Source: Streptomyces sp. NBC_01689
GTDB taxonomy: Bacteria > Actinomycetota > Actinomycetes > Streptomycetales > Streptomycetaceae
Reading direction: 5' to 3'
Assembly: GCF_036250675.1 (NCBI RefSeq)
Contig: NZ_CP109592.1
Coordinates: 6,200,001-6,264,000, forward strand
DNA length: 64,000 nt
A program made the translations under genes and the position numbers. The notes beneath the pieces were generated by a model that was given only the letters and a program-made list of their open reading frames with translations, was not told the DNA's origin and searched no databases. This document shows, in pieces, positions 9,497 through 46,682 of the stretch; the first letter of the stretch is position 1; each line of letters starts with the position of its first letter.

Positions 9497-12400
9497 GTGG
9501 CAGGTCAGCGGGGATGGGCACGGCGACTCGCCGGGTACGCGTGGCGGTACCCGAAGGACGTGCTGCTCGCGCTCGGGTCCGCGCTCGGCGGCATGGCGGT
9601 GCTCGCGGTGGTCCCGCTGATCACGAAGGTGATCATCGACGACGTGGTCGGGAACCACACCCGGTCCATGGGTCCCTGGGCGGGCGCGCTGGTAGCTGCG
9701 GCCGTCGTCGTGTACGTCCTCACCTACATCCGCCGCTACTACGGCGGCCGTCTCGCCCTCGACGTCCAGCACGACCTGCGGACCGAGATGTACGACACGA
9801 TCACCCGGCTCGACGGACGCCGGCAGGACGAGCTGTCCACCGGACAGGTGGTCGGCCGCGCCACCAGCGACCTCCAGCTGATCCAGGGCCTGCTCTTCAT
9901 GCTCCCGATGACCATCGGGAACGTGCTCCTCTTCCTGATCTCCCTCGGGATCATGGCCTGGCTCTCCCTGCCGCTCACCCTGGTCGCCCTGGCCGTGGCC
10001 CCCGCCCTGTGGGTCGTCGCCAAGCGCAGCCGCTCCCGGCTGCACCCCGCGACCTGGTACGCGCAGGCCCAGGCCGCCGCCGTGGCGGGCGTCGTCGACG
10101 GCGCCGTCAGCGGCGTCCGGGTGGTCAAGGGCTTCGGACAGGAGGAGCAGGAGACCGGGAAGCTCCGGGAGGTCGGCCGGCGGCTCTTCGCCGGACGGAT
10201 GCGCACCATCCGGTTCAACGCCCGGTACACCCCAGCCCTCCAGGCCGTGCCCGCCCTCGGCCAGGTCGCGATGCTCGCGCTGGGCGGCTGGCTCGCCGTA
10301 CGGGGACAGATCACGCTCGGTACGTTCGTCGCGTTCTCCTCGTACCTCTCCCAGCTCGTCGGACCCGTGCGGATGCTCGCGGTGGTCCTCACCGTCGGGC
10401 AGCAGGCCCGGGCCGGCGCCGAACGCGTGCTCGAACTGATCGACACCGAGCCGGTCATCCAGGACGGCACCAAGACCCTCCCGGCCGACGCGCCCGCGAC
10501 CGTCGAGTTCGACGACGTCTCCTTCGCGTACGAGGGCACCTCGAAGACGCATCCGGTGCTGAACGGACTGAGCTTCGAGATCCGGCCCGGCGAGACCCTC
10601 GCCGTCGTCGGCTCCTCGGGGTCGGGCAAGTCGACGGTGTCGCTGCTGATGCCCCGCTTCTACGACGTCACGCACGGCGCCGTCCTCGTCGGCGGCCACG
10701 ACGTCCGCGAGCTCACCCTGGAGTCGCTGCGCGCCGCGATCGGCCTGGTCCCCGAGGACTCGTTCCTCTTCTCCGACACCATCCGCGCCAACATCGCCTA
10801 CGGCCGCCCCGACGCCTCCCAGGAGGAGATCGAGCGGGCCGCCCTGGCGGCGCAGGCCGACCGCTTCATCTCCGAACTGCCCGAGGGCTACGACACCAAG
10901 GTCGGCGAACACGGCCTCACGCTCTCCGGCGGCCAGCGCCAGCGCGTCGCCCTCGCCCGCGCCATCCTCACCGACCCGCGCCTGCTCGTCCTCGACGACG
11001 CCACCTCCGCCGTGGACGCCCGTGTCGAGCACGAGATCCACGAGGCGCTGAAGCAGGTCATGGAGGGCCGCACGACCCTGCTGATCGCGCACCGCCGCTC
11101 CACCCTCAACCTCGCCGACCGCATCGCCGTGCTCGACGGCGGTCGGCTCGCCGACATCGGCACCCACGAGGAGCTCCAGGACCGCTCCCCGCTGTACCGC
11201 AGGCTCCTCACCGACCCGGACGAGCTGGGCGGGGTCTCCCCGGGACACGCCCAGCCCGTGACCGCCGCGGAGGACACCTCGGTACGGGAGGAACTGGACG
11301 CCGAGTTCGACGCCGAGCGCGGCGTCACCCCGCGGCTGTGGACCGGTGACCGCGAGCCCCGGGACAACGCGCTGGCGGGCATGCCGGCCACGCCCGAACT
11401 GCTCGCCCAGGTCGAGGCGCTGCCCCCGGCCACCGACACCCCGGCCGTCGACGAGGCCCGCGCGGTCACGCCCGAGGAGTCGTACGGGCTGCGCCGGCTG
11501 CTGCGCGGCTTCGGGCTCCCGCTCCTGGTGAGCCTCGGCCTGGTCGCCGTCGACGCCGGCATGAGCCTGCTGCTGCCCGTGCTGATCCGGCACGGCATCG
11601 ACCAGGGCGTCTCCCGGATGGCCCTCGGCGCGGTCTGGGCCGCGGCGGCCCTGGCGCTGGTCACCGTGCTCGTCCAGTGGTCGGCGCAGATCGGCGAGAC
11701 GCGGATGACGGGACGGACCGGCGAGCGGGTCCTGTACACGCTCCGTCTGAAGATCTTCGCGCAGCTCCAGCGCCTCGGACTCGACTACTACGAGCGGGAG
11801 CTGACCGGGCGGATCATGACCCGGATGACGACCGACGTCGACGCGCTGTCGACCTTCCTGCAGACCGGCCTGGTCACCGCGTTCGTCTCCGTCGTCACCT
11901 TCTTCGGGATCATGGGCGCGCTGCTGGTCATCGACGTCCAGCTGGCGCTGGTCGTGTTCGTGACCCTGCCGCCGCTGGTCGTCGGCACGTTCTTCTTCCG
12001 CCGGGCGAGCGTGAAGGCGTACGAACTGGCCCGCGAGCGCGTCTCGGCGGTCAACGCCGACCTCCAGGAGTCGGTGTCGGGGCTGCTGATCCTCCAGGCC
12101 TTCCGTCGTGAGCGCTCGGGCCGCCGGAGGTTCGCCGAGGGCAGTGCCGACTACCGCGCGGCACGCATCCGCGGACAGTGGCTGATCTCCGTCTACTTCC
12201 CCTTCGTGCAGCTGCTGTCGTCGGTCGCGGCGGCCGCGGTGCTGATGGTGGGCGCGCACCGGGTCGACGCCGGGACGCTGACGACCGGCGCGCTGGTCGC
12301 CTACCTCCTCTACATCGACCTGTTCTTCGCGCCCGTGCAGCAGCTCTCCCAGGTCTTCGACGGCTACCAGCAGGCGACGGTGTCGCTGGGCCGCATCCAG

Positions 12401-13225
12401 GAGCTGCTCCAGGAGCGGACGTCGACACAGGCCGCCGCCGAGCCGCAGGAGGTGCTCTCCCTGCGCGGCGACATCGCGTTCGAGGACGTCGGCTTCGCGT
12501 ACGGCGACGACGAGGAGGCGCTCAGCGAGGTCTCCCTGACCATCCCGGCCGGGCAGACCGTCGCCTTCGTCGGCGAGACCGGGGCGGGCAAGTCGACGCT
12601 GGTGAAGCTGGTCGCCCGCTTCTACGACCCGACGGGCGGGCGGGTCACCGTCGACGGCACCGACCTGCGCGACCTCGACATCACCTCGTACCGGCACCGG
12701 CTCGGGGTGGTCCCGCAGGAGGCGTATCTCTTCCAGGGGACGGTGCGCGACGCCATCGCCTACGGCCGGCCCGGCGCGACCGACGCGCAGGTGGAGGCCG
12801 CCGCCCGCGCGGTCGGCGCGCACGACATGATCGCCACGCTGGACGGCGGCTACCTCCACGAGGTCGCCGAGCGCGGCCGGAACCTCTCCGCGGGCCAGCG
12901 CCAGCTGATCGCGCTGGCCCGCGCCGAACTCGTCGACCCGGACGTGCTGCTTCTCGACGAGGCCACCGCCGCGCTCGACCTCGCCACCGAGAACCTGGTC
13001 AACCAGGCCACCGACCGGCTCGCCGGCCGCCGTACGACCCTGGTCGTCGCCCACCGGCTGACCACGGCCGCCCGGGCGGACCGGGTCGTGGTCATGGACC
13101 ACGGCCGGGTCGCGGAGGACGGCACGCACGATGAACTGCTGCTGCTCGACGGCCGGTACGCGGCGCTGTGGCGGACCTTCGTGGGGGCGCCGGGGCCGGA
13201 GGAGCCGGTCGGCTCCACCGCCTGA
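9497..13225 (+). CDS. Fused ABC exporter, two TMD-NBD halves in one chain
   Basis: A 1242-residue type IV ABC exporter with two complete half-transporters in one polypeptide. Half 1 has six membrane helices (about 20-310), Walker A GSSGSGKST (Lys378), signature LSGGQ (476-480) and Walker B ending in Asp500-Asp501. Half 2 starts near residue 660, with Walker A GETGAGKST (Lys1032), signature LSAGQ (1130-1134) and canonical Walker B Asp1154-Glu1155. The catalytic Glu is thus replaced by Asp in half 1. I chose the GTG at 9497 because GGAAGG lies seven bases upstream; a TTG at 9455 is also in frame. Substrate is unknown; lipid or drug export is typical of the family. Confidence 0.92.
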   Translation: MAGQRGWARRLAGYAWRYPKDVLLALGSALGGMAVLAVVPLITKVIIDDVVGNHTRSMGPWAGALVAAAVVVYVLTYIRRYYGGRLALDVQHDLRTEMYDTITRLDGRRQDELSTGQVVGRATSDLQLIQGLLFMLPMTIGNVLLFLISLGIMAWLSLPLTLVALAVAPALWVVAKRSRSRLHPATWYAQAQAAAVAGVVDGAVSGVRVVKGFGQEEQETGKLREVGRRLFAGRMRTIRFNARYTPALQAVPALGQVAMLALGGWLAVRGQITLGTFVAFSSYLSQLVGPVRMLAVVLTVGQQARAGAERVLELIDTEPVIQDGTKTLPADAPATVEFDDVSFAYEGTSKTHPVLNGLSFEIRPGETLAVVGSSGSGKSTVSLLMPRFYDVTHGAVLVGGHDVRELTLESLRAAIGLVPEDSFLFSDTIRANIAYGRPDASQEEIERAALAAQADRFISELPEGYDTKVGEHGLTLSGGQRQRVALARAILTDPRLLVLDDATSAVDARVEHEIHEALKQVMEGRTTLLIAHRRSTLNLADRIAVLDGGRLADIGTHEELQDRSPLYRRLLTDPDELGGVSPGHAQPVTAAEDTSVREELDAEFDAERGVTPRLWTGDREPRDNALAGMPATPELLAQVEALPPATDTPAVDEARAVTPEESYGLRRLLRGFGLPLLVSLGLVAVDAGMSLLLPVLIRHGIDQGVSRMALGAVWAAAALALVTVLVQWSAQIGETRMTGRTGERVLYTLRLKIFAQLQRLGLDYYERELTGRIMTRMTTDVDALSTFLQTGLVTAFVSVVTFFGIMGALLVIDVQLALVVFVTLPPLVVGTFFFRRASVKAYELARERVSAVNADLQESVSGLLILQAFRRERSGRRRFAEGSADYRAARIRGQWLISVYFPFVQLLSSVAAAAVLMVGAHRVDAGTLTTGALVAYLLYIDLFFAPVQQLSQVFDGYQQATVSLGRIQELLQERTSTQAAAEPQEVLSLRGDIAFEDVGFAYGDDEEALSEVSLTIPAGQTVAFVGETGAGKSTLVKLVARFYDPTGGRVTVDGTDLRDLDITSYRHRLGVVPQEAYLFQGTVRDAIAYGRPGATDAQVEAAARAVGAHDMIATLDGGYLHEVAERGRNLSAGQRQLIALARAELVDPDVLLLDEATAALDLATENLVNQATDRLAGRRTTLVVAHRLTTAARADRVVVMDHGRVAEDGTHDELLLLDGRYAALWRTFVGAPGPEEPVGSTA

Positions 13226-13236
13226 CGCCCGCCCGT

Positions 13237-13735
13237 TCAGCCCTTCGGCCCGATGCCGGAGATCTTCTTCGTGGCCAGGTCGGACCGGACGGTCAGATAG
13301 GTGTACGTCGGGTGCTGGCGGGAGCCCCAGGTCAGCCGGACGGTCGACCAGGTGTGGCCCGCACCGCTGTCGCCGGCCGTCACCTTCCAGGCACGCGGCA
13401 CGTCCTGGGCGCGCAGGACGCCGTCGGCGTGCTCACGGCTCTCCCACCCGGCGAGCCGGGTGCGCAGGTCCGGGGTCAGGTAGAACGCGCGCAGCTGGGA
13501 GCCGAGACGGCCGGAGCCCTGGTCGGTCACGGCGTCGATGTAGGCGCCGTAGAAGTCGGCGACCCGCTCGTACGCCGGACCGGCGGTACCGCTTCGCGCG
13601 GGCGGGGGAGCCGGCGAACGCGGGGACCGAGGCGCCGGCCGCGGCCAGGACGGCGGCGCAGGCGAACGCACCGACGGCGGCGCGGGAACGGGACATACGG
13701 GACCGGGGCGGGCGGGAACGGGACGTGCGGGACAT
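13237..13735 (-). pseudogene. Secreted hypothetical protein, apparently frameshifted
   Basis: The start is convincing: ATG at 13735 preceded by AAAGGTGGT, encoding an Arg-rich n-region and a hydrophobic signal peptide ending near VPAFA. That frame then turns into Arg-rich nonsense. A well-coded body, starting AYERVADFYGAYIDAV and running to GIGPKG at 13237, continues in a different frame. The two join around 13580-13610, at a run of five G on the plus strand (five C on the coding strand), which suggests a one-base insertion there. The repaired protein would be about 160 residues, exported and without a recognised domain. It may be a real pseudogene or a sequencing error in the homopolymer. 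Confidence 0.7.
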
Positions 13736-13936
13736 CGGGTACCACCTTTCGCTTTCCTGACCAGAGGACACCGGGTGAAGGGGCGCGGTTGCCCCGAAGG
13801 ACGAGAAGGCGCGGAAAAGGACCCGTCCGGCGCAAGGGACGAAGGCGCCGAGGGCGGGCTGCCGGAGGCGCGCAACCATCCGACACATGTTCTGCGTCCG
13901 TACACCAGTACGCTCAATGGTCGGGGAGGGGCGATT

Positions 13937-14326
13937 GTGGACAGTGGTGCGATCCGTCGGCGCCTGGCGCTGGGCCTGGCCGTGCTGACCGCCTCCGGGC
14001 TGCTCGCGTTGGTGTGCCCGGGGAGTGCGCAGGCCGCCTCGTACTGCTCGGGACGCAAGGTGCGCACGGTCTCCTTCACGACCGGCTCCGTGCAGCTCTA
14101 CCGGAACGGCGGCTACGTCTGCGCCGTGACCGTCCCCAAGAAGCAGCAGGCGCGGAAGCGGCAGATGTCGGTCAGTGTGCAGGCGCGCGGCAACCGGCCG
14201 GTGGTCGACGCGGGCCGCTTCGCGTACCACGCGGGCCCGGTCACCGTCCACGCCGGCCACCGCTGCGTCCGTATCCGGGGCTCGGTCGGCTCGGGCTCGG
14301 TCAGCTCGGGCTGGATCCTGTGCTGA
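13937..14326 (+). CDS. Small secreted hypothetical protein
   Basis: A 129-residue protein with a clear Sec signal (RRRLALGLAV core, cleavage around AQA-AS near residue 34) and a mature domain of about 95 residues. Four Cys remain in the mature protein, in SYCSG, GGYVCAV, HRCVR and the last residue, consistent with two disulfides. The GTG at 13937 has GGAGG seven bases upstream; upstream in-frame sequence is not coding-like. I do not recognise the family. It is divergent from the frameshifted secreted protein gene and precedes the S37 peptidase gene on the same strand. Confidence 0.75.
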   Translation: MDSGAIRRRLALGLAVLTASGLLALVCPGSAQAASYCSGRKVRTVSFTTGSVQLYRNGGYVCAVTVPKKQQARKRQMSVSVQARGNRPVVDAGRFAYHAGPVTVHAGHRCVRIRGSVGSGSVSSGWILC

Positions 14327-14467
14327 GGCGGTCGGTCCCGGCCGGAGTTCCGGCGATTCCCGGCTGAATCACAGCGAAGTCACAGGGATCACTCAAGTCC
14401 CCCTGGTGTCAACTCAGTTGCTCCGCTAGGTTCCGGCGGACATCTGTGTAACTCCAGGGGAGGGTGC

Positions 14468-15919
14468 ATGCGCAAGGCGCTCAGATGGCTGCTGGCGCTC
14501 ACGGTGCTCATAGGCACGCTGAGCACGGCCGGGGCGGCCACCGCCGCCCAGCCGGAGGCCACGGCCACCACCACCGGCACGACCTCGCAGGACATCAAGG
14601 ACCGTCTCCTCGCGATACCGGGCATGAGCCTGATCGAGGAGAAGCCGTACACCGGCTACCGCTTCTTCGTCCTCGGCTACACCCAGCCGATCGACCACCG
14701 GCACCCGTCCCGGGGCACGTTCCAGCAGCGCATCACGGTGCTGCACAAGGACACCGCGCGCCCGACGGTCTTCTACACCGGCGGCTACAACGTCTCCACG
14801 ACCCCGAGCCGCCGCGAACCGACCCAGATCGTGGACGGCAACCAGATCTCGATGGAGTACCGCTTCTTCACCCCGTCCCGGCCCGCTCCGGCCGACTGGT
14901 CCAAGCTCGACATCTGGCAGGCGGCCAGCGACCAGCACCGCATCTTCGAGGCCCTCAAGCCGATCTACGGCCGGAAGTGGATCTCGACGGGCGGCTCCAA
15001 GGGCGGCATGACCGCCACCTACTACGAGCGCTTCTACCCGCGCGACATGGACGGCGTGGTCGCCTACGTCGCCCCCAACGACGTGGTGAACGACGAGGAC
15101 TCGGCGTACGACCGCTTCTTCCGCAACGTCGGCACCAAGGAGTGCCGCGACCGGCTGAACGCGGTGCAGCGCGAGGCGCTGGTGCGCCGCGAGCCGCTGG
15201 AGAAGAAGTACGCGCAGTACGCCGCCGACAACGGCTACACCTTCACCACGATCGGCAGCCTGGACAAGGCGTACGAGGCCGTCGTCCTCGACTACGTGTG
15301 GGGCTTCTGGCAGTACAGCCTGCTGGCGGACTGCGCGACGATCCCGGCCGACGCGGCGCACGCCACCGACGACGCGATCTGGGACTCCGTCGACACCATC
15401 TCCGGCTTCTCCGCCTACACCGACCAGGGCCTGGAGACCTACACGCCGTACTACTACCAGGCGGGCACGCAGCTCGGCGCGCCCACGATCCGCTTCCCGT
15501 ACATCGAGAAGAAGCTGATCCGCTACGGCTACCAGCCGCCGCGGAACTTCGTGCCGCGCTCCATCCCGATGACGTTCCAGCGGTCGGCGATGCGGGACGT
15601 GGACACGTGGGTCGCGCACCACGCCCACCACATGCTCTACGTCTACGGCCAGAACGACCCGTGGGGGGCGGAGCGCTTCCGCCTCGGCAAGGGCGCCCGT
15701 GACGCGTACGTCTTCACGGCTCCCGGCCTCAACCACGGTGCCAACGTCGCCGGTCTCGTCCCCGACGAGAAGGCGCTGGCGACGGCCCGCATCCTGGACT
15801 GGGCCGGTGTCGCCCCCGCGGCCGTGCAGGCGGACCCCTCGGCGGCCCGCCCGCTGGCCCGGTTCGACGCCGGGCTCGACCGGCGCGACGTCGAACGCGA
15901 GCCGGCGCTGCGTCCGTAG
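14468..15919 (+). CDS. Secreted S37-family tripeptidyl aminopeptidase
   Basis: A 483-residue exported serine peptidase. Residues 1-27 are a signal peptide (hydrophobic core LLALTVLIG, cleavage near TAAQ). The alpha/beta-hydrolase nucleophile elbow is GGSKGG with Ser177, and a late His sits in GLNHGANVAG. The overall sequence matches the Streptomyces PS-10/S37 peptidase family, which removes tripeptides from the N-termini of secreted proteins. GGGGAGGG precedes the ATG by about four bases. A strong hairpin follows the stop. Annotation pipelines sometimes label this family S28 or simply aminopeptidase. Confidence 0.88.
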   Translation: MRKALRWLLALTVLIGTLSTAGAATAAQPEATATTTGTTSQDIKDRLLAIPGMSLIEEKPYTGYRFFVLGYTQPIDHRHPSRGTFQQRITVLHKDTARPTVFYTGGYNVSTTPSRREPTQIVDGNQISMEYRFFTPSRPAPADWSKLDIWQAASDQHRIFEALKPIYGRKWISTGGSKGGMTATYYERFYPRDMDGVVAYVAPNDVVNDEDSAYDRFFRNVGTKECRDRLNAVQREALVRREPLEKKYAQYAADNGYTFTTIGSLDKAYEAVVLDYVWGFWQYSLLADCATIPADAAHATDDAIWDSVDTISGFSAYTDQGLETYTPYYYQAGTQLGAPTIRFPYIEKKLIRYGYQPPRNFVPRSIPMTFQRSAMRDVDTWVAHHAHHMLYVYGQNDPWGAERFRLGKGARDAYVFTAPGLNHGANVAGLVPDEKALATARILDWAGVAPAAVQADPSAARPLARFDAGLDRRDVEREPALRP

Positions 15920-15927
15920 CCGCGGCC

Positions 15928-15959
15928 GCGCCCGCCCGCCGGTCACCGCGGGCGGGCGC
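15928..15959. terminator. Bidirectional hairpin terminator overlapping a stop codon
   Basis: A perfect 12 bp inverted repeat (GCGCCCGCCCGC at 15928-15939, complement at 15948-15959) with an eight-base loop lies between the convergent peptidase and lipoprotein genes. The lipoprotein stop codon (15943-15945) is in the loop, so the right arm is coding sequence. Confidence 0.8.
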
Positions 15960-16566
15960 AGCCGACCGGTCGGGCGCCGCCCAGCTGGACGTACAGGGCC
16001 GTGGCGGGCGGGCACACGGAGCGGTCGGTGACCGCCTCGGCCACCACGTACTCCGGGGGCTCGGCACCCCGGCCGTCGCAGGCGGTCTCGCGGACCTGGC
16101 CGCCGCCCGCGCGGTAGACGCAGTCGCCGACGACCGTGCGGGGACCTCCGCCGCCGCCCGGGTCGCCTGGGTGCGGGGGAGCCAGCCCGCGCATGCAGGC
16201 GTAACCCTGTGGGGCCGGGCTGCCGCCGCCGTCCGCGGCGGCCCGGGCCGCGTCGATGTGCAGGACGAAGTCCGTGGCCGGCGGGCACAGCGGCCCGTCG
16301 GCGACCCTGCCGTCGTGGCGGGCGAGGACGCGGGCGGCGGCCCGGTCACCGGCGCAGGGCACCTCGGCGACACGGCTCGTCCCGGCGGAACCGCACTCGC
16401 CGACCGCGAGGAACACCGCACCCCGGCCGGAGGGCCCGGCGGTCGTCGGTGCCGGGCGGGGCGCGGCATCCGCGGGCTCCGGCCCGTGGCCGCAGCCGGT
16501 GAGCACGGCCAGGGCCAGCGCGCAGACCGCCCCGGCGCACCGCCGTCCCACCGAGCCAGCTCGCAT
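15943..16566 (-). CDS. Lipoprotein with tandem CPPAT domains
   Basis: A 207-residue lipoprotein: the signal ends in the lipobox LTGC. The mature part is an internal duplication. Each half begins with VGxC, has a second Cys in VPCAG or TACDG, and ends with CPPAT followed by a hydrophobic strand (CPPATDFVLHID in half 1, CPPATALYVQLG in half 2). The six Cys after the lipobox and their spacing imply a repeated disulfide-linked fold. The ATG at 16566 has GGGGGAA six bases before it. I do not know the function. The gene converges on the S37 peptidase gene and overlaps its terminator. Confidence 0.78.
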   Translation of the reverse strand: MRAGSVGRRCAGAVCALALAVLTGCGHGPEPADAAPRPAPTTAGPSGRGAVFLAVGECGSAGTSRVAEVPCAGDRAAARVLARHDGRVADGPLCPPATDFVLHIDAARAAADGGGSPAPQGYACMRGLAPPHPGDPGGGGGPRTVVGDCVYRAGGGQVRETACDGRGAEPPEYVVAEAVTDRSVCPPATALYVQLGGARPVGCARPR

Positions 16567-16678
16567 GTCTTTCCCCCCGATGCCCCTGCCCAGCGTGACC
16601 CGCGGTGGCGGGCACACGCCGGACATTCGGGATGCTTTGCGTCTGCCGGGGGTGGTGCGTCCGGCCCGGTGCGCAGGG

Positions 16679-18511
16679 CTAGTACGTCATTCCGTACCCG
16701 ATCGGATACAGCACCTGGGCGGGGTCGTCCGCCCGCTGCACCGCGACCGGGAGCCTGCCGCGCGGCGCGGCCCGGCCGGCGATCACCCGTGCGGCGGCCC
16801 GCAGTTCGACGTCCGTCCAGGAGTACGCCGCCAAGTGGGCGTCGGCGGTGGGGAGATGGGCGACGTCGTACGGGTTGCGGACGGCGATCACGACGACCGG
16901 GACGCCGGTGGCGGCCAGCCGGTCGACGAGCGTCCGCTGGGAACTCGCCGCGGTGACGTTGTACGTCGCGACGACCACGGCGTCCGCTCCGGCGGCGGCC
17001 GCGACCGCCCCGTCGACGGCGGCCCCGGTCGGTGCCGTCCCCGTGGACAGTGCCGTCGCCGTGAATCCCAGCGCGGTCAGGGCCGCCGCGAGGACGGTGG
17101 TCGGCGGACCGTCGGTGCCGGTGGGCGAGGCCGGATCGGCGCCGACGACGAGCACGCGCCGGTGCGTACGGCGGGAGAGCGGCAGCAGGCCCCGCTTGTT
17201 GACCAGCAGGGTCGTGGTGCGTTCGGCGATCCGGTCGGCCGCCCTGAGGTGGGCGGCGGTGCCGACGGCCCGGTCGACACCGGTGTCGCCGACGTAGGGG
17301 TCGTCGAGCAGTCCGAGCTTCGCCTTGAGCCGCAGGACGCGCAGGATCGACTCGTCGAGACGGGCCTCGGTCAGCTCGCCGCCGCGCACCGCGTCGAGCA
17401 CGGCGTGCCAGGCGACGTCGATGGACGGCGGGTTGAGGAGCTGGTCGACGCCGGCCTTCAGGGCCAGTACGGGGACACGGTCGTCGCCGTACTTCGTCCG
17501 TACGCCCTCCATGCCGAGCGAGTCCGTCACCACCACGCCGTCGTAGCCGAGTTCCTCGCGCAGGATGCCGGTGAGGATCGGGCGGGAGAGCGTGGCCGGG
17601 TCACCGGCCGGGTCGAGCGCCGGGACCATGATGTGGGCGGTCATGATCGAGTCGATACCGGCCCGGATCGCGGCCCGGAACGGCACGGCGTCGAGGTCCG
17701 ACCACAGCTGACGGCTGTGCGTGATGACCGGGAAGCCGAAGTGGCTGTCCACGGCGGTGTCGCCGTGGCCAGGGAAGTGCTTGGACGTGGCGGCCACGCC
17801 CGCGCCGCGGTACCCCTCCACCTCGGCCGTCACCAGCCGGGCCACCGCCCGGGGGTCGGCACCGAAGGAGCGGACGCCGATGACCGGGTTGGCCGGGTTG
17901 ACGTTCACGTCGGCGACCGGGGAGTAGTCCTGCCGGATGCCGAGCGCGCGCAGTTCGGTGCCGCTGAGCCGCCCGACCGTGCGGGCGTCCTCCCGCGAGC
18001 CGCCCGCACCCAGCGCCATCGCGCCCGGGAACAGCGTGGCGGGCTTGCCGACCCTGGCCACTATGCCGTGCTCCTGGTCGGTGGAGATCAGCACGGGCAG
18101 CCCGCGTGGCTGGGCCAGCGAGACCCGCTGGATGCCGTTGGACAGAGCCGCGATCTGGTGCGGGTCACGGGTGTTGTGGGCCCAGGTGAAGTAGATGATG
18201 CCGCCGACGCGGTAACGGGCGATCAGTTCGGCGGCCGTCCTGACGCCGAGTTCCGTGAGGTTGGCGTCGATGTCGGCCTGGTCGGGGGCGGTGGCCGAGT
18301 GGCCGTACACCCGCATCACGAAGAGCTGGCCGACCTTCTCCTCCAGCGTCATGCGGGAGATCAGGGCGCGGAGTGACGTGTCGTCATGGTGGCCCCCGGC
18401 GGCCCCGGCGGGGGCCGTGTTCAGGGCGAGAGCGGCGGTGGTCGCGGCGGTGGCGGCGAGAACCGTACGTCTGGACGGTGATGCGGTGCTTCCCGTGCTG
18501 GAGTCGCGCAC
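16679..18511 (-). CDS. Tat-exported GH3 beta-N-acetylhexosaminidase
   Basis: A 610-residue glycoside hydrolase family 3 enzyme. The N-terminus has a Tat signal (SRRTVLAA) ending near GAAGG. The NagZ-type His/Asp loop is KHFPGHGDT (about 244-252), and the nucleophile is the Asp in VVTDSLGMEG (about 330). This loop identifies N-acetylglucosaminidases, acting here outside the cell on chitin or peptidoglycan fragments. A C-terminal GH3_C-like region follows (about 420-610), longer than in E. coli NagZ. The start is a GTG with GGAAGGAG six bases upstream; that sequence lies inside a palindrome (see the leader feature). It stands alone between two minus-strand genes. Confidence 0.9.
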   Translation of the reverse strand: MRDSSTGSTASPSRRTVLAATAATTAALALNTAPAGAAGGHHDDTSLRALISRMTLEEKVGQLFVMRVYGHSATAPDQADIDANLTELGVRTAAELIARYRVGGIIYFTWAHNTRDPHQIAALSNGIQRVSLAQPRGLPVLISTDQEHGIVARVGKPATLFPGAMALGAGGSREDARTVGRLSGTELRALGIRQDYSPVADVNVNPANPVIGVRSFGADPRAVARLVTAEVEGYRGAGVAATSKHFPGHGDTAVDSHFGFPVITHSRQLWSDLDAVPFRAAIRAGIDSIMTAHIMVPALDPAGDPATLSRPILTGILREELGYDGVVVTDSLGMEGVRTKYGDDRVPVLALKAGVDQLLNPPSIDVAWHAVLDAVRGGELTEARLDESILRVLRLKAKLGLLDDPYVGDTGVDRAVGTAAHLRAADRIAERTTTLLVNKRGLLPLSRRTHRRVLVVGADPASPTGTDGPPTTVLAAALTALGFTATALSTGTAPTGAAVDGAVAAAAGADAVVVATYNVTAASSQRTLVDRLAATGVPVVVIAVRNPYDVAHLPTADAHLAAYSWTDVELRAAARVIAGRAAPRGRLPVAVQRADDPAQVLYPIGYGMTY

Positions 18512-18871: not shown

Positions 18872-19789
18872 TCACGGCGTGTCGTGCCGGGACGCCGAGG
18901 GCCAGTGCGACCGCAGGGCGGCGACCGTCTCCGCGATGGCCGGCCGCCGTGCCGCGCCGGTGCGCCACAGCGCGTACAACCGCCGTACGGGCATCGGGTC
19001 GAGCGGCACCTCCACCACCCCTTCGGGAAGCGCGCCACGCCCGAGCCGGGGGATCAGCGCGACGCCGAGCCCGGCCGCGACCAGGGCGACGAGGGTCGGG
19101 TTCTCGTCCGCCTGATGGACGATGTCCGGCTCGCAGCCCGCCGCGCGCAGCGTGCGCACCAGCCAGTCGTGGCACACCCGGCCGGGCGGCTGGCAGATCC
19201 ACCGCTCACCGGCCAACTCCTCCCGCCGCACGGACGTCCGCCCGGCGAGCGGATGCCCGGCGGGCACCAGGAGGTCGCAGAGGTCGTCCCCGATCACCGC
19301 CTGCTCCACGCCCGGCGGAGCGGGGAGCGGCGCGATGTCCCAGTCGTGCGCCACGGCCACGTCGACGGCGCCCTTGGCGACCAGGTCCACGGAGAGATGC
19401 GGGTCGACCTCGGTGAGCCGGGTGTCGAGGGCGGGATGCCGGACGGCCAGGTCGGCCAGGACGGCGGGCAGCAGCCCGCGGGCCGCGCTGGCGAACGCGG
19501 CGAGGTCCAGCCGCCCCGCGGGAACCCCGCGCCGCTCCTCCAGTTCGGTCTCGGCACGCTCCACGATGGCCATCAACTGCTGCGCGGTGGAGGCCAGTCG
19601 AAGGGCCTGCTCGGTGAGCCGCACACCGCGGCCACGCCGTTCGAGCAACACGGTCCTGGTCTCCCGCTCCAGTTTGGCGATCTGCTGGGACACCGCGGAG
19701 GGCGTGTACCCGAGCGCCGCCGCGGCGGCGCCGACCGTGCCGTGGACGGAGACGGCGTGCAGGGCGCGCAGCCGCTGGAGGTCGAGCAC
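18872..19789 (-). CDS. LysR-family transcriptional regulator
   Basis: A 305-residue LysR regulator. The winged-HTH at residues 1-62 is clear (GTVGAAAAALGYTPSAVSQQ, then LERETRTVLLERRGRG), followed by a LysR substrate-binding domain (about 85-295). The GTG at 19789 has AGGGG six bases upstream. It is divergent from the EamA exporter gene across only 88 bp, the standard arrangement for a LysR protein controlling its neighbour, so the EamA and EPSP-synthase genes are the likely targets. The co-inducer is unknown. Confidence 0.9.
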   Translation of the reverse strand: MLDLQRLRALHAVSVHGTVGAAAAALGYTPSAVSQQIAKLERETRTVLLERRGRGVRLTEQALRLASTAQQLMAIVERAETELEERRGVPAGRLDLAAFASAARGLLPAVLADLAVRHPALDTRLTEVDPHLSVDLVAKGAVDVAVAHDWDIAPLPAPPGVEQAVIGDDLCDLLVPAGHPLAGRTSVRREELAGERWICQPPGRVCHDWLVRTLRAAGCEPDIVHQADENPTLVALVAAGLGVALIPRLGRGALPEGVVEVPLDPMPVRRLYALWRTGAARRPAIAETVAALRSHWPSASRHDTP

Positions 19790-19877: not shown

Positions 19878-20798
19878 ATGCGACCCGCCCACATCTGTCT
19901 CGCCGTGTTCGTCGCCGCCGTCTGGGGCGTGAACTTCACCGTCGTCGAGGTCGGTCTCGGCCACTTCCCGCCGCTGCTCTTCTCCGCCCTGCGCTTCCTG
20001 GTGGCGGCTCTGCCCGCGGTGTTCTTCGTCGGGCGGCCCAAGGTCGCGTGGAAGTGGATCGTGGCGGTGGGGCTGGTCCTGGGCGTCGCCAAGTTCGGAC
20101 TGCTCTTCATCGGCATGGGCGCCGGGATGCCGGCCGGCCTGTCCTCCCTCGTCCTCCAGGTCCAGGCGGTCTTCACGGCGCTCATCGCCTACGCCGTCCT
20201 GGGCGAACGGCCCACCGGCGTCCGGCTCGCGGGCATGGCGGTCGCGTTGTGCGGCGTCGTCGTGGCCGCCGTGGACGAGGGCACCGGCGGCCCGCTCGGC
20301 GCCTTCGCGCTGGTGATCGCGGCGGCGGCCTGCTGGGGCGCGTCCAACGTCCTGACCCGCAGGGCTTCTCCGCCCGACTCCCTCAATTTCATGGTGTGGG
20401 TGAGCACCGTCCCCGTACTCCCGCTGCTGGGGCTCTCGTTGCTGACGGAGGGCCCCGCCCGGGACCTCGACGCGCTGCGTGCCCTCGACTGGCGGGGCGC
20501 CGGGATCGTGGTCTACGTCGCCTGGATCACGACCGTCCTCGGCTTCGGGGCGTGGGGCAGGCTGCTGCGCCACCATCCCGCGTCCACCGTCGCGCCGTTC
20601 TCCCTCCTGGTCCCGGTCTTCGGCATGTCGTCCGCCGCCCTGTTCCTCGGCGAGTCGGTGGGCCCCCTGCGCTGGGCGGCGGCGGCGCTGCTGGTCGGAG
20701 GGGTGGCCCTGACCTCCCTGGCACCCTCGCGGACGGCCCGCGGGGTGGTCCGACCGGCGGACGGTCCGACACCGGACCGGATCGGGGCGCCAGTATGA
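19878..20798 (+). CDS. EamA/DMT-superfamily exporter
   Basis: A 306-residue protein with ten predicted membrane helices in two five-helix EamA repeats; the second repeat begins near GAFALVIAAAACWGASN. Family members export amino acids, sugars and other metabolites. The ATG at 19878 has no good Shine-Dalgarno and the mRNA could be leaderless. The stop codon is four bases before the start of the EPSP-synthase gene, so they are almost certainly co-transcribed. The divergent LysR gene suggests an inducible exporter. Substrate unknown; context allows an aromatic-pathway compound or an inhibitor. Confidence 0.88.
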   Translation: MRPAHICLAVFVAAVWGVNFTVVEVGLGHFPPLLFSALRFLVAALPAVFFVGRPKVAWKWIVAVGLVLGVAKFGLLFIGMGAGMPAGLSSLVLQVQAVFTALIAYAVLGERPTGVRLAGMAVALCGVVVAAVDEGTGGPLGAFALVIAAAACWGASNVLTRRASPPDSLNFMVWVSTVPVLPLLGLSLLTEGPARDLDALRALDWRGAGIVVYVAWITTVLGFGAWGRLLRHHPASTVAPFSLLVPVFGMSSAALFLGESVGPLRWAAAALLVGGVALTSLAPSRTARGVVRPADGPTPDRIGAPV

Positions 20799-20802
20799 GC
20801 CC

Positions 20803-22047
20803 ATGGCCGTAGTCGACATCCCCGGGTCCAAGTCCATCACCGCGCGTGCGCTGTTCCTGGCGGCGGCGGCCGACGGGGTCACGACCCTGCGGCGCCCGCT
20901 CCGCTCCGACGACACGGAGGGCTTCGCGGAGGGCCTCGTCCGGCTGGGCTACCGGGTCGGCCGCGCACCGCACGTCTGGCAGGTCGACGGGCGTCCGGGG
21001 GGCCCGGCCGTCACGGACGCCGACGTGCACTGCCGGGACGGCGCGACCACCGCCCGCTTCCTGCCCACCCTCGCCGCCGCGGGCCACGGCACCTACCGCT
21101 TCGACGCCTCCGCGCAGATGCGCCGCCGCCCGCTGCTGCCGCTCACCCGCGCCCTGCGCGACCTGGGGGTGGACCTCCGGCACGACCGGGAGGAGGGCCA
21201 TCACCCGCTGCGGATCGCGGCGTCCGGTGTGGCGGGCGGCGAGGTGACGCTCGACGCGGGCCAGTCCTCCCAGTACCTGACGGCACTTCTGCTGCTCGGC
21301 CCGCTGACCCGCGAGGGCCTGCGGATCACCGTGACCGACCTGGTGTCCGCGCCGTACGTCGGGATCACCCTCGCGATGATGCGGGCGTTCGGGGCGTCCG
21401 TCCGCAGGGAGGGCGACGTCTTCGAGGTGGACCCCGGCGGCTACCGCGCCACGACCTGGGCGATCGAACCCGACGCGTCCACCGCGAGCTACTTCTTCGC
21501 CGCGGCGGCGGTGACGGGCCGTACGGTGACGGTCCCCGGTCTCGGCACCGGCGCGCTCCAGGGGGACCTGGGCTTCGTGGAGGTGCTGCGGCGGATGGGG
21601 GCGCGGGTGGAGGTCCGCGAGGACCGTACGACGGTCACCGGTACCGGCGAACTGCGCGGCGTCACGGTCGGCATGCGGGACATCTCCGACACCATGCCGA
21701 CGCTGGCCGCGATCGCGCCGTTCGCCTCGGGCCCGGTCCGCATCGAGGACGTCGCCAACACACGCGTCAAGGAGTGCGACCGCCTCGACGCCTGCGCGGA
21801 GAACCTCCGGCGGCTGGGCGTACGGGTGCGGACCGGCCCCGACTGGATCGAGATCCACCCCGGTGCGGCTCCGCGGTCCGGCACGGAGATCAGGACGTAC
21901 GGCGACCACCGCGTCGTCATGTCCTTCGCGGTGACCGGACTGCGGACCCCGGGTGTCTCGTTCGACGACCCCGGCTGCGTACGGAAGACGTTCCCGGCCT
22001 TCCACGAGGAGTTCGCCGGGCTGCGGGCCCGGCTGCTGGGTCCGTGA
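20803..22047 (+). CDS. aroA: EPSP synthase (3-phosphoshikimate 1-carboxyvinyltransferase), divergent type
   Basis: A 414-residue enolpyruvyl transferase with both EPSP-synthase repeats: PGSKS at 7-11, DISDTMPTLA, RVKECDR, TYGDHRVVMSF and DPGCVRKTFP. The enzyme joins PEP to shikimate 3-phosphate in the aromatic pathway. The PEP-site loop, usually NAGT, reads DGAT (79-82), putting Ala81 where E. coli has Gly96, a position tied to glyphosate tolerance. From memory this is unlike the housekeeping actinobacterial AroA, which reads LAGTVMRF, so it is probably a second copy. It starts four bases after the EamA exporter stop. A role on another substrate is possible. Confidence 0.85.
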   Translation: MAVVDIPGSKSITARALFLAAAADGVTTLRRPLRSDDTEGFAEGLVRLGYRVGRAPHVWQVDGRPGGPAVTDADVHCRDGATTARFLPTLAAAGHGTYRFDASAQMRRRPLLPLTRALRDLGVDLRHDREEGHHPLRIAASGVAGGEVTLDAGQSSQYLTALLLLGPLTREGLRITVTDLVSAPYVGITLAMMRAFGASVRREGDVFEVDPGGYRATTWAIEPDASTASYFFAAAAVTGRTVTVPGLGTGALQGDLGFVEVLRRMGARVEVREDRTTVTGTGELRGVTVGMRDISDTMPTLAAIAPFASGPVRIEDVANTRVKECDRLDACAENLRRLGVRVRTGPDWIEIHPGAAPRSGTEIRTYGDHRVVMSFAVTGLRTPGVSFDDPGCVRKTFPAFHEEFAGLRARLLGP

Positions 22048-22114: not shown

Positions 22115-23050
22115 TCAGTGCGGGATGCCGTCGATCAGCTCGCGGGCACCCTGGCGCAGCAGTGCCACGGCGACCGACGTGCCGAGGGTCGCGGGATCGA
22201 GCCGGCCCGCCCACTCGTGCGCGTTCAGGACCGTCTTGCCGTCCGGGGTGAACACGCAGGCGCGCAGCGACAGTTCGCCACCGCGGTGCGCCTTCGCGTA
22301 ACCCGCGATCGGCGAGTTGCAGTGGCCCTGCAGGACGTGCAGGAACATGCGCTCCGCGGTGGCCTCGCGGTGCGTGTCCGGGTCGCCGAGGTCGCTGACG
22401 GTCCCGATCACGTCCGTGTCGCCCTCGCGGCACTGGAGGGCCAGGATGCCCGCGCCGATCGGCGGCATCATCGTCTCGGTCGACAGGACCTCGCTGATCA
22501 CGTCGGTGCGGCCGATGCGTTCGAGCCCGGACGCCGCGAGCAGCAGCGCGTCCGCCTCGCCCGCCGCGAGCTTCTCCAGGCGGCGGTTGGCGTTGCCCCG
22601 GAACGGCACGCACTCCAGATGCGGGTGCGAGGCGGCGAGCTGTGCCACGCGCCGCACGGAGGAGGTGCCGATCCGGGTGCCCTGCGGCAGCTCGTCGAGG
22701 GTGAGCCCGGCGGGGTGGATCAGCGCGTCGCGGATGTCGTCCCGGGCGAGGAAGGCGGCGAACATCGTCCCAGCGGGCAGCGGGCGGTCCGCGGGGATGT
22801 CCTTCACGCAGTGCACCGCGAGGTCGGCCTCACCCGCCAGCAGCGCCGCGTCGACCTCCTTGGTGAACGCGCCCTTGCCCTCGACCTTGGACAGGTCGCC
22901 CATCCACTTGTCGCCGGTCGTCCGCACCGGGACGACCTCGGTGCGGATCTCGGGGTGGAGCGCGCCCAACTCGGCGCGTACGCGCTCCACTTGGGCCAAG
23001 GCCATGGGGGAGTCGCGGGAGACGATACGGATCAGTTCCGGGGCCGACAT
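22115..23050 (-). CDS. hemC: Porphobilinogen deaminase (hydroxymethylbilane synthase)
   Basis: A 311-residue HemC, which polymerises four porphobilinogens to hydroxymethylbilane for haem, corrin and sirohaem synthesis. The catalytic Asp is Asp84 in HCVKDIP, and the dipyrromethane cofactor Cys is Cys244 in [10 protein letters not shown]. That loop differs from the usual EGGCQVP. Other family landmarks ([15 protein letters not shown]) are intact. I used the ATG at 23050; a GTG at 23059 is in frame, and neither has a strong Shine-Dalgarno. No other haem genes are adjacent, so this may be a second copy, as the loop also suggests. It is convergent with the EPSP-synthase gene. Confidence 0.88.
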
Positions 23051-23180
23051 GCCGACCACGATAGCCGGTTTGCTTGGGGCGGGTGGGGGGTAAGGCGATC
23101 GCCCCAGGTGGTGGCGGCGCGAGCGGCCGCGGGCCGTCGGCGGGCGGGGGTGGGGGCGCGGTGCGCGGTGCGCGGTGTGT

Positions 23181-46177: not shown

Positions 46178-46230
46178 GGAAAGCGCCCTGCTACCGGTCC
46201 CCCCACGGGCCGGCAGTCAGGGCGCTTTCC
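46178..46230 (+). terminator. Terminator of the citrate synthase gene
   Basis: GGAAAGCGCCCTG (46178-46190) pairs perfectly over 13 bp with CAGGGCGCTTTCC (46218-46230). The loop contains a second small inverted repeat (CCGG...CCGG). It lies 60 bp after the stop codon and is followed by TTGT. Confidence 0.88.
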
Positions 46231-46682
46231 TTGTCCCGGTGCGGATTCCCCCCACGGGATCCGGCCGGGCGTCTGTGGACAGCGCCTGAATCGCTGCGAG
46301 CAAAACGAGCAGAACTCTTCGTGCTACCGCGTGCTCCCGCACGCGCTCCGGTGCGATCTGCCGGGACCCGTACCGACGGGAGGGCCGCTCAAAGCTCCCC
46401 GCTGTACGTGCCCCGGCAACGCAGTTCCGGGAACGTCCCCCAAGACATCCCCAGATGTCAGAAACGCCCCCCAAGACGTCTCTGGCATCGCCAACTTAGA
46501 CTCACGAACCCCTTCGCTGGTTACGTTCACATCACTGTGATCTGTGTCTCTTGCGTATGTCCTGAAGATACGCAAGAGCCCCGATTCGGGAATCGAGAGC
46601 CAAGCGTAAGGAAGATGCGCGAGCCTTGTGAAGAGCTTATGTGAGGCTCCCGTTGGACTCTAGGGGGACTCTTACTCCGTCG
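46231..46682. other. Low-GC structured intergenic region
   Basis: This 452 bp gap between the convergent citrate synthase and copA genes is lower in GC than its neighbours and has no codon-biased frame. It contains several RNA-like inverted repeats, the best at 46548-46578 (separate feature), plus GAGCCT/AGGCTC arms at 46621-46649. Confidence 0.6.
46527..46649 (+). ncRNA. Candidate structured small RNA downstream of citrate synthase
   Basis: The segment begins with TCACA-TCAC-TGTGA (46527-46540). A perfect 11 bp hairpin follows, CTCTTGCGTAT (46548-46558) with ATACGCAAGAG (46568-46578), then CGATTC-GG-GAATCG (about 46582-46595), and finally GAGCCT (46621) pairing with AGGCTC (46644-46649). 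The density of hairpins and the drop in GC suggest RNA rather than protein. I recall a small RNA named scr2736 beside the citrate synthase gene of S. coelicolor, which would fit, but I cannot confirm homology, boundaries or strand. Confidence 0.45.

Follow-up and report, generated by a model that had tools for sequence, protein, structure and literature searches.

The window analysed here is a stretch of 64,000 nucleotides of Streptomyces sp. NBC_01689 (positions 6,200,001 to 6,264,000 of the 9.9 Mb contig NZ_CP109592.1), and it contains the second aroA gene of the genome. The aroA start codon lies four bases after the stop codon of a gene for an EamA-type transporter, and a LysR-type regulator is encoded divergently upstream (Table 1). 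This is the arrangement given in the original prediction, which had been made from the sequence alone, and profile searches verified the families. The closest NCBIfam model for the transporter was PRK11453, the O-acetylserine/cysteine exporter EamA, yet the score of 212.1 bits is below its cut-off of 472. The annotated neighbours in the family search were a peptidase S37, GH3, LysR, EamA, hemC, a MarR-GNAT protein and a phosphoesterase; three mechanically called reading frames near aroA had no family match in that search. No inhibitor biosynthetic cluster was found among these annotated neighbours.

Table 1. Features of the aroA region, in window coordinates.
Feature	Position	Strand	Basis
Glycoside hydrolase family 3 (GH3), flank marking the syntenic site (locus A)	16679-18511	-	PF00933/PF01915
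Divergent LysR-type regulator	18872-19789	-	HTH_1 and LysR_substrate
EamA-type drug/metabolite transporter	19878-20798	+	PF00892, 110.6 bits
Class IV (DGT-28-type) EPSP synthase (very probable assignment), 414 aa, second aroA of the genome	20803-22047	+	TIGR01356, identity to 7m0o
PEP/glyphosate-site loop D79-G80-A81-T82-T83-A84-R85-F86	21037-21060	+	Counted from start codon 20803
hemC (hydroxymethylbilane synthase), convergent neighbour outside the unit	22115-23059	-	TIGR00212, 331 bits

The hemC gene in the window is one of two in the genome. It adjoins the class IV aroA in 5 of 81 loci of this site, and this state changes at least twice on the aroA tree. The one known RNA element in the window is the Streptomyces small RNA Scr2736 (RF02831, 78.9 bits; 46209-46271, minus strand), distant from aroA. 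Upstream of the class IV aroA genes of seven loci no known RNA element was found; the single match, in L228, was a tRNA.

Identity of the second EPSP synthase

The window AroA matched EPSP_synthase PF00275 with 343 bits and passed the curated equivalog model TIGR01356 with 393.3 bits against a cut-off of 287.25. In an alignment with the E. coli enzyme, 26 sites were compared. The residues K10, S11, R15, R109, S155, S156, Q157 and S182 are kept, as are D296, N319, K323, E324, R327, H369, R370 and K395, and the enzymes differ at E. coli positions 90, 94, 95, 96, 98, 99 and 101. The Phe at the position of E. coli Pro101 also occurs in the housekeeping streptomycete enzyme and is therefore not peculiar to the paralogue. 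Comparison with five relatives gave a dN/dS of 0.20-0.25, indicating purifying selection. Judged by its sequence, the gene encodes an intact EPSP synthase.

The original prediction had called for a search for a second aroA, and a separate housekeeping copy is indeed present. The genome encodes four PF00275 members: the housekeeping AroA with an N-A-G-T loop (L001), the window gene (L002), and two proteins (L003 and L004) that were not matched with the window protein as query and that we take for putative MurA-type enzymes. The housekeeping and window enzymes belong to the same family and presumably catalyze the same reaction, but an identity of 36% (36-38% if E. coli AroA is included) and the N-A-G-T loop set the housekeeping enzyme apart.

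Among solved structures, the best match to the window enzyme was PDB entry 7m0o, with 344 of 403 residues identical (85%) and the same loop, and another S. sviceus record (P0034) is identical to the window enzyme at all 26 sites compared. According to an excerpt of PMC8983318, 7m0o is the EPSP synthase of Streptomyces sviceus, and the work cited there (Griffin 2021) is titled as describing a glyphosate-tolerant enzyme of a distinct class. In an excerpt of PMC12554703, DGT-28 EPSPS is described as a class IV enzyme that confers glyphosate tolerance in maize and acts on the shikimate pathway, and the same Griffin 2021 paper is cited for its class. The class IV reference of the EPSPSClass server is the Streptomyces davawensis EPSPS, as given in an excerpt of PMC9145961. 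Our assignment of the window enzyme to class IV was made by identity, which is far higher to 7m0o than the 36-38% found to the own housekeeping AroA and the E. coli AroA. We take DGT-28 to be the S. sviceus enzyme of 7m0o, from the citation that the two descriptions have in common. The window gene very probably encodes an EPSP synthase of class IV, the orthologue of DGT-28 from another species (S. sviceus), and is accessory to the housekeeping aroA. The enzyme class itself is already known: it was described by 2021 and is in commercial use in maize.

The unusual loop on which the original prediction was built is real. Asp79, Gly80, Ala81 and Thr82 lie opposite Asn94, Ala95, Gly96 and Thr97 of E. 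coli K-12 AroA. The offset is constant at 15 from V75/L90 through the whole loop to R109/R124, so no gap shifts Ala81 away from Gly96. In an alignment with PDB chain 1mi4, Ala81 stands opposite the second Ala of N-A-A-T; we take 1mi4 to be the G96A mutant of E. coli EPSPS, which is consistent with the Gly of the K-12 enzyme at that site. The predicted position of Ala81 is thus borne out by both alignments. The orthologues carry D-G-A-T-T-[A/S]-R-F in all 111 loci, some of which are the same gene fetched twice, whereas the loop of the housekeeping AroA is N-A-G-T-V-M-R-F in 31 of 31 streptomycetes, all of them class IV carriers. The D-G-A-T loop is therefore not a chance variant, and the statement in the original prediction that the housekeeping enzyme keeps Gly was correct for these carriers.

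In G96A enzymes the methyl group of the Ala sits where glyphosate would extend past the PEP pocket. By analogy, the window enzyme would convert shikimate 3-phosphate and PEP to EPSP by the ordinary EPSPS mechanism, as expected from its orthologue, and the methyl group of Ala81 would crowd glyphosate beyond the PEP pocket and lead to poor binding of the inhibitor. Gly80, which corresponds to Ala95 in E. coli, probably eases the strain on PEP binding, as the loop pattern suggests. The E. coli G96A form likewise has Ala at this position, but it is a mutant; the Ala of the window enzyme is accompanied by Gly95 and Asp94 (E. coli numbering). The Agrobacterium CP4 EPSPS, presumably of class II, also appears to have Ala at the Gly96 position; the companion residues Gly95 and Asp94 mark the window enzyme. 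The window enzyme is probably insensitive to glyphosate because the 85% identical S. sviceus enzyme is described as glyphosate-tolerant. Of the proposal that the gene encodes an insensitive target, the altered PEP-site residue, the paralogy and the separate normal aroA stood as observations, and the insensitivity itself is probable by analogy with the 7m0o orthologue.

The original prediction also offered a specialised enolpyruvyl transferase, which would act on another acceptor. Recruitment of this kind does occur in the AroA family: a group of homologs with 39-42% identity to the window enzyme (L125-L134) keeps Gly in 10 of 10 sequences, and the aroA of one of these loci (L127) lies with genes that the family search assigned to an ArsP permease, an iPGM-like enzyme and phosphate ABC components. 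This gene set resembles the arseno-organic cluster of S. lividans, which includes an AroA according to excerpts of its description. For the window enzyme, the alternative is highly improbable. Except for the loop changes, the checked residues for shikimate 3-phosphate and PEP are kept, the TIGR01356 cut-off is passed, and the orthologue DGT-28 is reported on the shikimate pathway in the excerpt of PMC12554703.

Class IV genes are accessory within the genus. A hand count of the matches listed gave at least 57 carriers among 150 genus genomes: the own genome, 25 with 83-86% identity, 27 with 76-80%, and 4 with partial or split genes. Two other matches in the genus (G049 and G011) have one stop each. 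One of the four is in two pieces (G063) and the other three are partial, some perhaps at contig ends; such broken or partial copies indicate that the gene is dispensable. A housekeeping aroA was also present in 30 of 30 and 32 of 32 carriers tested; a few carriers of the second set have the class IV gene in its D-A-G-T form. Class IV is thus an accessory second EPSPS, and in none of these 62 genomes does it replace the housekeeping copy. In a draw of 150 genomes from the family, matches with E<=1e-100 occurred in 94 genomes and 7 of 17 genera, and some of these hold only a group with 54-58% identity. In a draw of 394 genomes from the class, a match with E<=1e-90 was found in 20, and the sole one outside the genus (G474) had 62% identity.

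Two equal-scoring class IV copies were observed in one genome (G214:C1:414603-415823 and 7959096-7960316). The two copies face opposite ways, each close to one end of an 8.0 Mb contig, and may belong to terminal inverted repeats.

Chromosomal settings and the EamA-LysR neighbours

The original prediction saw in the exporter and the insensitive enzyme a pattern of self-protection against an EPSPS inhibitor. In such a unit the EPSPS would resist an inhibitor made or met by the strain, EamA would export it and the LysR protein would sense it. The strain does have an altered, resistant-type second copy of the target, and the four-base junction in the window has counterparts elsewhere. The upstream region was surveyed in the best 80 of 376 related loci and the window, a sample that favours near relatives, and 76 of these were readable upstream. 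EamA was directly 5′ of aroA in 22 of the 76 and was not found there in 54. The junction measured 4-5 bases in 20 of the 22 EamA-bearing loci and 43 and 551 bases in the remaining two, which makes co-transcription of the two genes probable in most of the 22. The short junction looks like a true translational coupling and permits a functional link in that lineage. In the window lineage, aroA is probably co-transcribed with EamA and may be under LysR control, possibly as a lineage-specific tie.

A conserved exporter partner was not found. The presence of EamA requires at least 12 changes of state on the aroA tree. Orthologues of the transporter (E<=1e-90) were found in 70 of 150 genus genomes, and hand comparison with the class IV matches listed placed them next to the class IV gene in 7, in genomes that carry both genes on other contigs or far apart in 18 (draft contig ends may split some pairs), and in genomes without the class IV gene in 45. 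In nine EamA loci that have no class IV gene beside the transporter, the GH3 gene lay upstream in 9 of 9, a LysR gene was called in 8 of 9, and a sugar-isomerase-like gene came within a few genes after EamA in 8 of 9. The GH3 flank was present in 73 of 81 locus A sequences including the window (a gene cluster of 72 loci together with tblastn). The block that holds LysR and EamA thus occurs without aroA as well, and one sub-group has aroA inside it. In the 31 loci of other settings neither EamA nor LysR was found at the thresholds used. The LysR-EamA pair thus occupies the site independently of the gene, and no conserved export function is tied to the enzyme.

Synteny, the distribution of EamA and the changes on the tree lead us to reject exporter coupling as a general feature, and the proposed unit did not survive as a conserved one. 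As an explanation of the window genes we consider it very unlikely: EamA-LysR is present at this site also where the genome has no class IV aroA, EamA is missing upstream in most loci, the 18 genomes carry the two genes apart, and no biosynthetic cluster is annotated nearby. The own genome also lacks a strong PEP mutase match, the best score being 63.8 bits against a cut-off of 319.55, and the statistical association of PEP mutase with class IV genes described below is not significant.

A GNAT-like gene directly follows the class IV aroA in 37 of 81 loci, sometimes with a 4-base overlap. A relative of it adjoins EamA in a locus without a class IV aroA (L201). The names sugar isomerase, GNAT and LacI in locus A were given by eye from the sequence.

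Outside the sub-group with 83-86% identity, the class IV gene is closely followed by dxr-rseP-ispG-proS in 15 of 17 genus loci, and in most of these an acyl-CoA dehydrogenase gene precedes it. One of the two others (L244) shares two of the same upstream genes and its sequence ends after aroA; the other (L215) differs. Further settings occur in loci of other genera and in one of another family. For a comparison across settings, which were named by hand, 35 loci of other settings or genera were combined with 14 loci picked from the 81 of locus A. Apart from aroA itself, no gene cluster was common to three settings, and four were common to two. Among these four is the locus A gene that resembles a sugar isomerase, which is also near aroA in L241. 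A neighbour common to all settings was accordingly rejected. The EamA-aroA-hemC neighbourhood is a local feature of the window lineage, in which it differs from DGT-28.

Loop variants and the natural role

Among the papers listed in the literature search, none dealt with what the second EPSPS of streptomycetes does in nature. A second, differently regulated isozyme could raise the flux to chorismate, for example for aromatic secondary metabolites, with insensitivity as a by-product. A sister group with 53-57% identity to the window enzyme (L115-L124) keeps Gly, with D-A-G-T in 10 of 10 sequences. In one of its loci (L116), the family search found the sister aroA in a run with a class II DAHP synthase, a short-chain dehydrogenase, an isochorismatase, a chorismate-binding enzyme with an amidotransferase, a transketolase and a chorismate synthase. 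Families named from this locus recur in the group: those of chorismate synthase, transketolase and DAHP synthase were near aroA in 7, 6 and 6 of the ten sister loci. Together with the housekeeping copy that accompanies class IV in each of the 62 tested genomes, this argues for an isozyme that supplies chorismate. Against it, the family search found no other shikimate gene adjoining the class IV gene in the window, in a locus of the dxr type (L211) or in the one gene annotated in L212. Co-located pathway genes were seen in L116 and L127, one annotated locus for each related group, and not in the window or L211, which resemble neither setting. On balance we hold a supply function to be a serious candidate, with somewhat less than an even chance of being correct.

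The loop varies within the wider class IV family. Among 79 loci, at least 5 of which repeat a gene, D-A-G-T occurred in 10, D-A-A-T in 21 and D-G-A-T in 48; the orthologues with D-A-G-T have no Ala at position 96. D-G-G-T was absent from these 79 loci and from the 111 orthologue loci, and in the 79 loci Gly95 was seen solely together with Ala96. All three loops occur within a single genus (g7; L229, L230, L239 and L248-L276). When the loop was left out of the tree building, the minimum was two changes at position 96 and four at position 95. We infer from the sequences that Gly95 may compensate for Ala96. In a quick tree, eight sequences of a single genus appear to have gone from Ala back to Gly, but a tree grouping all Ala sequences was not rejected by the AU test (p = 0.243), and we do not claim this reversion.

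A reading that would join these loops is that the Streptomycetaceae have long carried class IV as a natural resistance gene, an inhibitor-proof spare against natural PEP-site inhibitors of EPSPS in soil. The loop would have stepped from D-A-G-T to D-A-A-T, which brought resistance, and on to D-G-A-T, which restored the fit of PEP, and one lineage may have reverted to Gly. We consider this scenario unlikely, though clearly less so than the self-protection unit. If it were true, glyphosate insensitivity would be a pre-existing trait and not an accident. The benefit to the bacterium may lie in a supply isozyme or in an inhibitor-proof spare.

For the accessory class IV EPSPS, the comparison contributes its natural setting, with the additional copy at several chromosomal sites and three kinds of loop in one genus. 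With the natural loop series, assays can directly address why an insensitive EPSPS was retained by bacteria before there was glyphosate.

A link between class IV genes and phosphonate producers was examined by means of PEP mutase. The cut-off of the PEP mutase model was passed in 3 of 150 genomes, one of which carries a class IV gene. Lowering the limit to about 190 bits, a value set once the scores were known, gave a match in 17 of the 150 genomes; 10 of these were carriers (10/57 against 7/93; Fisher p = 0.069, kinship ignored), and the link was rejected. One locus (L288, apparently on the contig of L046) has, within 11400-16962, a gene that matches the PEP mutase model with 297 bits, below the cut-off of 319.55. 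It is followed by genes that by eye resemble those of phosphonate clusters, about 7 kb upstream of a class IV aroA.
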